Below are positions 42,089 to 46,072 of a stretch of 46,072 nucleotides of DNA, one piece after another (within the stretch, counting starts at the first letter, position 1; every line of letters starts with the position of its first letter). The DNA is from Crocinitomicaceae bacterium. GTDB lineage: Bacteria > Bacteroidota > Bacteroidia > Flavobacteriales_D > Crocinitomicaceae. The translations under genes were made by a program, and so were the position numbers. The stretch spans positions 1 through 46,072 of the forward strand of contig JAOASF010000171.1 of the NCBI GenBank assembly GCA_025210175.1, given 5' to 3'. Under the pieces are notes generated by a model that saw only the letters and a list, made by a program, of their open reading frames with translations, was not told the DNA's origin and did not search any database.

Positions 42089-44533
42089 ATGAATTCTAAT
42101 TTAATTTATGTGCCAATCGGTTTGGCAATTGTTGGTTTGCTTTTCATGCTCGTGAAAATGTCATGGGTGAAAAAGCAAAGCGCTGGAAATGATAAGATGC
42201 AAGGTATTTCTAAGAGCATCAAGGAAGGTGCAATGGCATTCTTGTCTGCCGAATACCGTTTGTTGGCAATCTTCGTAGTAATCGCTTCAGGTGCATTGTT
42301 CTGGATTTCAAGTGTTGTTGAAACAACTTCTTGGATGATTGTTCCTGCATTTGTAGTAGGTGCTGTATTCTCAGCTGTTGCTGGAAACATCGGTATGCGT
42401 ATTGCGACAGATGCGAACGTTCGTACAACTGAAGCTGCAAGAACTTCTTTGCCGAATGCATTGAAAGTTTCTTTCGGTGGTGGTATCGTAATGGGATTAG
42501 GAGTTGCTGGTTTGGCAGTTCTTGGTTTGTCTTTGTTCTTCATGGTCTTCATTGGAAGCTTCATGACAGAAGGAGGAAACTTCTACAACGACATGACAAT
42601 GGTATTGGAAGCTTTGGCTGGTTTCTCTTTGGGAGCTGAGTCGATTGCTTTGTTTGCACGTGTTGGTGGAGGTATTTACACGAAAGCTGCTGACGTTGGT
42701 GCTGACTTGGTAGGTAAAGTTGAAGCTGGAATTCCTGAGGATGATCCGCGTAACCCTGCAACTATTGCGGATAACGTAGGTGATAACGTAGGTGACGTTG
42801 CTGGTATGGGTGCTGACTTGTTCGGTTCATACGTTGCAACTGTATTGGCATCTATGGTTTTGGGTAACTACATTATTAAAGACATGTCGGATGCGGCAGG
42901 TTCTCAATACTCAGATTCATTCAATGGAATGGGACCTATCCTATTGCCAATTATGATTGCTGGAGTTGGTATCATCGCTTCTATCATCGGTACTTTCTTG
43001 GTACGTGTTAAAAACAATGACGCGAAAGAAGCGGAAGTTCAAAAAGCATTGAACATTGGTAACATCGCTGCTATTGTTCTTTCTGCTGCTGCAGGTTGGT
43101 TCTTGGTTGACATGATGTTGCCAGAAACTATTAAAGGAATGAAATTCTTCGGTGAAGCTGCAAGAGATATCCCTTCACGCCACATTTTCTACGCTACATT
43201 GGTAGGTTTGGCAGTTGGTTACTTGATCTCTTTCTTCACAGAATACTACACAGCTCTTGGTAAGAAGCCAGTTTTGGACATCGTTAAAAACTCTTCTACA
43301 GGTGCTGCAACAAACATTATCGCTGGTTTGTCAACTGGTATGATCTCTACTTTCTCTTCAGTTATCTTGTTCGCAGTTGCGATCTGGGGTTCTTACGAGT
43401 TGGGTGGATTCTACGGGGTAGCTATCGCTGCTTCTGCTATGATGGCAACTACAGCTATGCAGTTGGCAATCGATGCTTTCGGACCTATCGCTGATAACGC
43501 AGGTGGTGTTGCTGAGATGTCTGAATTGCCAGACGAAGTACGTGGACGTACAGACGTTTTGGATTCAGTAGGTAACACAACTGCTGCCGTTGGTAAAGGA
43601 TTCGCTATTGCTTCTGCTGCATTGACAGCCTTGGCTTTGTTCGCTGCTTACGTAACATTTACAGGTATCGACGGAATTAACATCTTCAAAGCAGATGTAT
43701 TGGCTGCCTTGTTCATCGGTGGTATGATTCCAGTTGTATTCTCTGCATTGGCGATGAAGTCGGTAGGTAAGGCTGCAATGGACATGGTAATGGAAGTACG
43801 TCGTCAGTTCAAGGAAATTCCAGGAATTATGGAAGGAACTGGAACGCCAGAGTACGGAAAATGTGTTGAGATCTCTACAAAAGCTGCATTGCGTGAAATG
43901 ATGTTGCCAGGTGCAATCACTATCATTTCTCCACTTATCATCGGATTCACAATGGGTGCTGAGGCTCTAGGAGCCTACATGGCAGGTGTTGCTGTTTCAG
44001 GTGTTCTTTGGGCAATCTTCCAAAACAACGCTGGTGGTGCTTGGGATAACGCGAAAAAATCTTTCGAGGCAGGTGTTATGATCAACGGAGAAATGACGTA
44101 CAAAGGTTCTGATGCTCACAAAGCGGCAGTGACGGGAGATACAGTTGGTGATCCATTCAAAGATACTTCTGGTCCATCGATGAATATCTTGATTAAATTG
44201 ACTTGCTTGGTAGGTTTGGTTATCGCTCCAATCTTGGGTAACGGTCACCACGGTGATTCTGCAAGCGCAGCTGGATGTGTGAAATCAGAAGCTTCTTGCA
44301 AGAAAGATAAGTCTTGCAAAAAAGATGCGAAGTGCACGGCTGATGCGAATGAAACAATGAAAATGTGTTGCAAAGACTCAGGAAAAGAAATGGCATCTAT
44401 TACAAAAGAAGAGTGCATGAAAATGTGCGAAGAAAAAGGATGTACAGCTGAGCAAAAAGCAGAATGCATGAAAAACTTCGACGAGAACGGAAACTTCGTT
44501 GGCGTGAAGAAAGAATGCTGCAAAAAGCACTAA
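42089..44533 (+). CDS. hppA: membrane-bound ion-pumping pyrophosphatase with a Cys-rich tail
   Basis: The 814-residue inner-membrane enzyme couples PPi hydrolysis to pumping of protons or sodium. Catalytic loops are [48 protein letters not shown] and [34 protein letters not shown] has Ala where the potassium-independent type has Lys, so it should be the potassium-dependent type. The conserved body ends near residue 720 ([10 protein letters not shown]). The last 90 or so residues are an unusual soluble tail with 12 cysteines, many lysines and several Met ([25 protein letters not shown]). In this family the C-terminus faces outward, so the tail may bind metal there. Confidence 0.95.
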
Positions 44534-44695: not shown

Positions 44696-44749
44696 ATGAT
44701 TTTATTCAATCTACATCATCGTCATCATTACAAATGCCCTCAGGCGTAA
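44696..44749 (+). CDS. hisL: histidine operon leader peptide
   Basis: A 17-codon frame reads MILFNLHHRHHYKCPQA and stops at TAA 44747-44749. Four of five consecutive codons are His (44714-44728), as needed for sensing charged histidine tRNA by ribosome stalling. It lies between the promoter box and a terminator, directly upstream of hisG, with AAAAAAAGGAA just before the ATG. It has no function beyond regulation. Confidence 0.85.
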   Translation: MILFNLHHRHHYKCPQA

Positions 44750-44819
44750 TGGTGTTTCTATGTAGATAAGTAAAAGAAAATAACATTAAACCGTCTGAGT
44801 AAAATCAGGCGGTTTTTTT
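44739..44819 (+). promoter_or_regulatory. histidine operon attenuator (antiterminator and terminator)
   Basis: Terminator: AAACCGTCTGA (44788-44798) pairs with TCAGGCGGTTT (44805-44815), one G-U, followed by seven T. Antiterminator: CTCAGGCG (44739-44746), inside the leader peptide's last codons, pairs with CGTCTGAG (44792-44799), one G-U. A ribosome stalled on the His codons would leave 44739-44746 free and prevent the terminator. A ribosome reaching the stop codon would cover it and allow termination. All parts of classical attenuation are present. Confidence 0.85.
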
Positions 44820-44855
44820 ATTCCCACGATTTTGCTCAGACCCATTTCAAAAAGA

Positions 44856-45713
44856 ATGAGCACAATTAGATTAGCACTGCAAAAGAAAGGTCGACTTAGT
44901 GAAAAGTCGCTCGAATTACTGAAATCGTGTGGTATAAAAATCTCGAACGGAGATCGTACCCTCAAAACCCAATCTTCCAATTTCCCAATTGAGATCCTCT
45001 TTTTGAGAGATGATGACATTCCCCAATATGTCGAACAAGGTATTGCTGATTTGGGAATTCTAGGTCAAAACGAGGTTTGGGAAAAGAACAAGAAGGTAGA
45101 GGAAATTCTAGCATTGGGATTTGCGGGCTGTAGAATGTCGATTGCCGTACCTAAAGAACTAGACTACCCAGGTCTGTCGTATTTCAATAACAAACGCATC
45201 GCAACTTCCTACCCAGGGATTTTGGCCAAGTACTTAACCGACAATGGAATCAATGCTGAATTGGAAGAAATTGGAGGAAGTGTTGAAATCGCAACTGGGA
45301 TTGGTTTGGCAGATGGAATCTTCGATATTGTTTCCACGGGTTCAACCTTACTCATGAATGGTCTCAAAGAGGTCGAAACGGTAGTGAAAAGCGAAGCAGT
45401 TTTGATCTCCAATCCGAATCTTTCGTCTGACAAAACTGCCTTATTATAAAAACTCGTTTTTAGAATACGAGCGGTATTAGCGGCAAAGGAAAACAAATAT
45501 TTCTTGCTGAATGCTCCCAATGACAAAGTAGTAGCGATTTCTTCTGTATTACCCGGTATGAAAAGCCCAACGATTCTACCCTTGCAAGATTCTGGTTGGT
45601 CAAGTATTCACTCAGTCGTGGAAGAGGATCAGTTTTGGGAAAGAATTGACCAAATCAAAGCATTGGGTGCTCAAGGAATTCTTGTTGTTCCAATTGAAAA
45701 AATGATCCTATGA
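44856..45713 (+). pseudogene. hisG: hisG, ATP phosphoribosyltransferase, interrupted by one in-frame TAA
   Basis: The first enzyme of histidine synthesis joins ATP and PRPP. From ATG 44856 (MSTIRLALQKKGRLSEK) the frame codes for a complete catalytic part, including GSVEIATGIGLADGIFDIVSTGSTLLMNGL at the PRPP site. It then meets TAA at 45447-45449 (codon 198). The same frame continues without shift into KLVFRIRAVLAAKENKYFLLNAPN ... GAQGILVVPIEKMIL, the C-terminal regulatory domain of long-form HisG, and stops at 45711-45713. Read through, the length is 285 codons, normal for the long form. The stop replaces one codon (family usually Asp/Glu in ALLxKLxFRI). The 197-residue piece might still act like a short-form HisG. 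Otherwise the gene is inactive or the TAA is a sequencing error. Confidence 0.85.
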
Positions 45714-46072
45714 AACTGATAAAGTATCCAGCGAAGAAAGACTGGAAAGAGTTAACAAAAAGGCCCGCTTCAGATTTGAGTCAGTTGCAAGCTGTGGTCG
45801 ATGAGATCTTCCAAGAAGTGCAAAACAATGGAGACCAAGCATTGATTGCTTTGACCAAGAAGTTTGACAAATGTGCTTTGGAACAAGTGGTCGTTCCAGT
45901 CGAAAAAGTGTCATCTCGCATCAACAAAGACTTGCAAAATGCGATTGATATCGCTTATCGAAATATCAAGACTTTCCACAGAACGCAGATTCAAGAAAAA
46001 GAGCCTAAAGAAACGACGGCTGGTGTGGTTTGCTGGAGAGAGGCAAGACCAATCGAGAGTGTTGGCATGTAT
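45710..46072 (+). CDS. hisD: histidinol dehydrogenase, N-terminal part (cut by window end)
   Basis: From ATG 45710 (overlapping the hisG stop as ATGA) 121 codons are open to the window edge. The product reads MKLIKYPAKKDWKELTKRP, then AVVDEIFQEVQNNGDQALIALTKKFDK, RNIKTFHRTQIQEKEP, GVVCWREARPIESVGMY. These match the start of HisD, which oxidises histidinol to histidine; the usual next residues (IPGG) lie beyond the edge. Gene order hisG-hisD and the 4-base overlap fit a histidine operon under the attenuator upstream. Confidence 0.93.
   Translation, partial: MKLIKYPAKKDWKELTKRPASDLSQLQAVVDEIFQEVQNNGDQALIALTKKFDKCALEQVVVPVEKVSSRINKDLQNAIDIAYRNIKTFHRTQIQEKEPKETTAGVVCWREARPIESVGMY

Follow-up and report, generated by a model that had tools for sequence, protein, structure and literature searches.

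HisG, the ATP phosphoribosyltransferase of histidine synthesis, is described in two forms that frame the locus reported here. Long-form HisG (HisGL) joins a catalytic domain (PF01634) to a C-terminal regulatory domain, HisG_C (PF08029), is encoded ahead of hisD in the operon and goes without the partner protein HisZ, whereas short-form HisG (HisGS) has no regulatory domain and is found with HisZ. An extract of one published survey gives the size of the short form as 214 +/- 9 residues and describes all 91 of 91 HisG proteins in one superphylum as long form, with HisZ not found there (PMC8305728). A third point of comparison is the engineered HisG core of C. jejuni (PDB 5ub9, 5ubg, 5ubh, 5ubi), a long-form HisG from which the regulatory domain has been removed, as would be the case for the product considered below.

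The window, by which is meant the whole stretch of 46,072 nt analysed here, comprises positions 1 to 46,072 of the forward strand of contig JAOASF010000171.1 (Crocinitomicaceae bacterium, assembly GCA_025210175.1). It forms one contig, C155, in the draft genome of an uncultured Bacteroidota bacterium, which is 3.25 Mb long, split into 217 contigs and 93% complete. Towards its end, a hisG gene with both domains of the long form is interrupted by an in-frame stop codon, and the features of the locus are as follows:

44696..44749, + strand: His-rich leader ORF MILFNLHHRHHYKCPQA, upstream of hisG; similar leader ORFs occur in 102/119 distinct hisG upstream regions
44788..44819, + strand: terminator-like hairpin, then seven T; fold of -15.7 kcal/mol on 44788-44827
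44856..45446, + strand: 5' part of hisG, 197 codons, encoding the catalytic domain but little of its last helix (helix 191-210 in the AlphaFold2 model); Pfam HisG match of 168.4 bits
45447..45449, + strand: in-frame TAA, codon 198 of hisG; a sense codon in 124/124 other distinct hisG genes
45450..45713, + strand: 3' part of hisG, with the end of the catalytic helix, the regulatory domain HisG_C (Pfam match of 95.9 bits) and the natural stop TGA
45710..46072, + strand: first 121 codons of hisD (NCBIfam hisD match), its ATG overlapping the hisG stop (ATGA, read directly), cut by the contig end; the remainder lies on contig C86

From the ATG at 44856 to the natural TGA at 45711-45713 the gene spans 285 codons, and codon 198 is TAA in the assembled sequence. 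Read through, the product matches Pfam HisG at residues 51-205 and HisG_C at 210-282, both above cut-off and in the order of a long-form enzyme, from which the gene differs in that its frame is broken at codon 198. Aligned with 33 relatives, the window's hisG gives 285 columns that are free of gaps near the stop site; therefore a substitution, not an indel, explains the stop, and a gene split by frameshift is ruled out. The earlier note, which had reported a single in-frame TAA at 45447-45449 with the frame intact on either side over 285 codons and one base change as its cause, is borne out on these points, as it is in holding that TAA is not generally recoded, since TAA ends 23 of the 33 listed window genes and is the commonest stop among them.

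The stop is peculiar to this gene. When 125 distinct (deduplicated) hisG genes were compared, the window's included, only the window's had a stop at codon 198; in the 124 others the codon specifies D (67), E (26), N (17), K (9), Q (2) or, once each, R, H and T, and 28 of these 124 codons are one change away from TAA. The assembly thus shows one mark of a nonsense pseudogene, a stop in frame where the relatives have an open gene. Further, hisG and HisG_C each occur once in the 93% complete assembly, with no second hisG copy elsewhere.

Taken as it stands in the assembly, from which the stop is known, the lesion is probably a nonsense mutation of recent date, through which hisG is inactivated and the strain, or a part of the population, is auxotrophic for histidine. 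A recent single-base substitution would have created the nonsense codon, and ribosomes would halt at codon 198. The resulting 197-residue product, with no regulatory domain at all and with the closing helix of its catalytic domain largely gone, would be inactive or unstable, so that the first step of histidine synthesis would be lost and the cell would have to import histidine. Fewer ribosomes would probably reach the overlapping hisD start as well (polarity), and the sampled population may be polymorphic for the lesion. The four readings offered in the earlier note fare unequally against the evidence assembled here: recent loss of histidine synthesis agrees with it best, sequencing or assembly error is its main rival, a functional truncation is weakened, and read-through found no support.

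The position of the cut within the protein is one ground for this reading. When the read-through protein is modelled with AlphaFold2 (mean pLDDT 87.7), its catalytic domain ends with a 20-residue helix (191-210) and its regulatory domain starts at 213, which places the stop seven residues into that helix; Pfam boundaries agree in that HisG reaches 205 and HisG_C begins at 210, the stop at 198 preceding both. The earlier note had set the stop exactly between the catalytic and regulatory domains, a placement that is off by about 12 residues. In the structure comparison, the 18 listed short-form entries (ranks 17-22 and 24-35, some called short form by chain length) all align to model residue 207-212 and keep the last helix. 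The four C. jejuni core structures, 4/4, also align to 207-212, and that core retains the helix to query residue 212, whereas the window's product stops at 197. In the sequence search, every short-form chain match likewise extends to query residue 200 at least. Because the cut falls in the helix while the short-form structures reach 207-212, the 197-residue product is, on the model, an incomplete catalytic domain and not a short-form HisG, and the recent-loss reading draws on the fact that the 18 listed short forms and the four cores keep the helix that is cut here.

Compared with HisGS, the product would share the absence of the regulatory domain; its C-terminus, in contrast, is some 10-15 residues shorter, so that the complete catalytic domain of a short form is wanting. 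The likeness to the short form proposed beforehand therefore holds for the missing HisG_C domain and fails for size, 197 residues lying below the 214 +/- 9 range given in the extract of PMC8305728. The hisZ gene that the earlier note had proposed to look for does not appear either: nothing in the 93% complete genome scores above the TIGR00443 cut-off of 271.65, and the best match, at 135 bits, is histidine--tRNA ligase.

The remainder of the pathway is in good order. Contig C86 carries the rest of hisD followed by hisC, hisB, hisH, hisA, hisF and hisIE, all open, and the his genes other than hisG are thus intact in this genome; since decay has not yet reached the other pathway genes, the lesion appears to be young. 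Recent loss is favoured because both halves of hisG are intact around the in-frame TAA, hisG and HisG_C are each single, and the other his genes are open. It is favoured also because the scan for split domains between neighbours among 32 further window ORFs against Pfam (28 with a match) found none and because the 3' part of hisG has no clear relaxation. Between the window and its congener G002, pN amounts to 0.195 for residues 1-122 and to 0.162 for residues 210-284, with synonymous sites saturated, and conserved columns are changed at 5/108 in the 5' part against 2/43 in the 3' part. By these two measures, relaxed constraint after the stop is not clearly seen, though, when branches were measured for the 3' part on a fixed tree, the window's came out longest of 34, with the fourth-highest ratio to its 5'-part branch; were that length to mean relaxation, it would indicate an older event and count against a young one. 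Overall, the constraint data are what either a recent event or an artefact would give.

A family survey of 240 genomes, 151 of them near-complete, found a hisG match in 81/240 (56/151 of the near-complete) and a hisD match in 80/240 (56/151), and pathway absence is therefore common in the family; 95/151 near-complete genomes are without detectable hisG, and 95/151 without detectable hisD. In-frame stops within hisG occur in two of the 81 hisG-bearing family genomes, the window's and that of G124. The decaying his locus of the latter (L160, G124:C31) has in common with the window a His-rich leader followed by a hisG with an in-frame TAA. It differs in that its stop is at codon 166 and its hisD, with an in-frame TAG, is broken and cut short (match only to position 162 of 411), whereas the window's operon is otherwise intact; a full-length HisA or HisF match was not found in G124. 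As a shared truncation G124 was rejected, its stop sitting at another codon. Congeners G001 and G003 are without hisG, hisD and hisB and have only weak HisA/HisF-family matches (genomes about 82% complete), while G004 has a hisF-like gene and is likewise without hisG, hisD and hisB (about 82% complete). The absence of the pathway from most of the family, the decay in G124 and the missing genes of G001 and G003 all speak for the recent-loss reading; that G004 keeps a hisF-like gene counts against it, as does the low completeness, about 82%, of the three congeners that lack hisG.

Another congener, G002, has his genes, with hisG split across two contig ends and hisD frameshifted. Two candidates for a natural hisG truncation were set aside, that in G019, where the match ends at residue 208, being explained by a contig end, and that in G002 being the split over two contig ends instead. 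The hisD gene appears to be in two pieces in G002 (L135, G002:C314) near 1364-1383, by an A7 run, and in G052:C92 at 94454-95670. On another contig of G002 (L134, G002:C71) lie a second hisB and further HisA/HisF matches, perhaps from a second strain or contamination. Absence of or damage to the his pathway is thus common in the genus and family, although some of the breaks in draft genomes may be errors. A literature search on histidine biosynthesis or auxotrophy in metagenome-assembled Flavobacteria found no paper.

An assembly, consensus or sequencing error, with the organism itself having a sense codon and an ordinary long-form HisG, is the main rival and, though unlikely, the one that survives best. 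The draft character of the assembly counts against recent loss here: the contig ends inside hisD, 625 bases downstream of the stop, and the facing ends of C155 (46061-46072) and C86 (L132) share a 12-base overlap in hisD that contains one mismatch, perhaps through strain variation at the break; this hints that strains were mixed or coverage was poor. The intactness of all other his genes, to which the conservation of the hisG 3' part may be added, is equally expected from a simple error. Consensus substitutions that create stops should, however, be rare compared with real nonsense mutations, and the 32 ORFs scanned in the window include no other split gene. Unless raw reads reveal an assembly error, the lesion is ordinary gene decay.

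It is very unlikely that the 197-residue catalytic part is a functional truncated enzyme that works alone, free of histidine feedback. The Pfam HisG match is barely altered by the cut (172.2 to 168.4 bits), and structures are available for engineered catalytic cores of C. jejuni. Going by the titles of papers, a dimeric HisG catalytic core has reportedly been obtained, the short-form HisG of L. lactis is said to catalyse independently, and the work of Mittelstadt in 2018 is said to concern the HisG catalytic core. Those engineered cores and the short forms listed, however, all continue beyond the point within the helix at which the window's product ends, HisZ is wanting above the cut-off, the residues past the stop are still conserved, and long forms alone, without HisZ, are described for the superphylum in the extract of PMC8305728. 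More doubtful yet is the stronger version, in which the whole species carries the stop and the piece serves without HisZ as a feedback-free ATP phosphoribosyltransferase; if true, it would capture a natural long-to-short transition of HisG at its first step, in a group for which the extract of the 91-genome survey records only long-form HisG (PMC8305728).

Least credible of all is read-through of the stop, or a translation restart beyond it, yielding a full-length or two-piece HisG: the 3' part is intact and conserved and an ORF of 69 codons with a TTG start opens at 45504, but that TTG corresponds to residue 217, within the strand (213-221) with which the regulatory domain begins in the AlphaFold2 model, TAA is the ordinary stop of the window's genes, a suppressor tRNA was discarded in that no TAA-complementary anticodon occurs among the tRNAs typed at 21 of 23 tRNA loci (an incomplete set), and no Rfam family matches at gathering score across the window.

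Returning to recent inactivation of hisG, if the stop is real the locus would offer an early snapshot of histidine-pathway loss, in which hisG, the operon's first gene, is broken while the attenuator-like leader and the remaining genes are intact. It would be useful for studying the origin of auxotrophy in uncultured Bacteroidota, the mechanism itself being ordinary.

Two further observations concern the region upstream of hisG. The stretch 44696-44819, in which the His-rich leader ORF is followed by the terminator-like hairpin, has an attenuator-like layout, and the recurrence of such leaders (102/119 distinct upstream regions) compares with an average of 0.05 after mononucleotide shuffling, done 20 times. 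An extract of a Flavobacterium psychrophilum transcriptome study mentions attenuation by leader peptides ahead of amino-acid operons, and such control has therefore already been noted in the group (PMC9723704). Further upstream, at 42089-44533, the window encodes an H+-translocating pyrophosphatase whose Pfam domain ends at residue 712 of 814, leaving a Cys- and Lys-rich C-terminal extension of about 100 residues.
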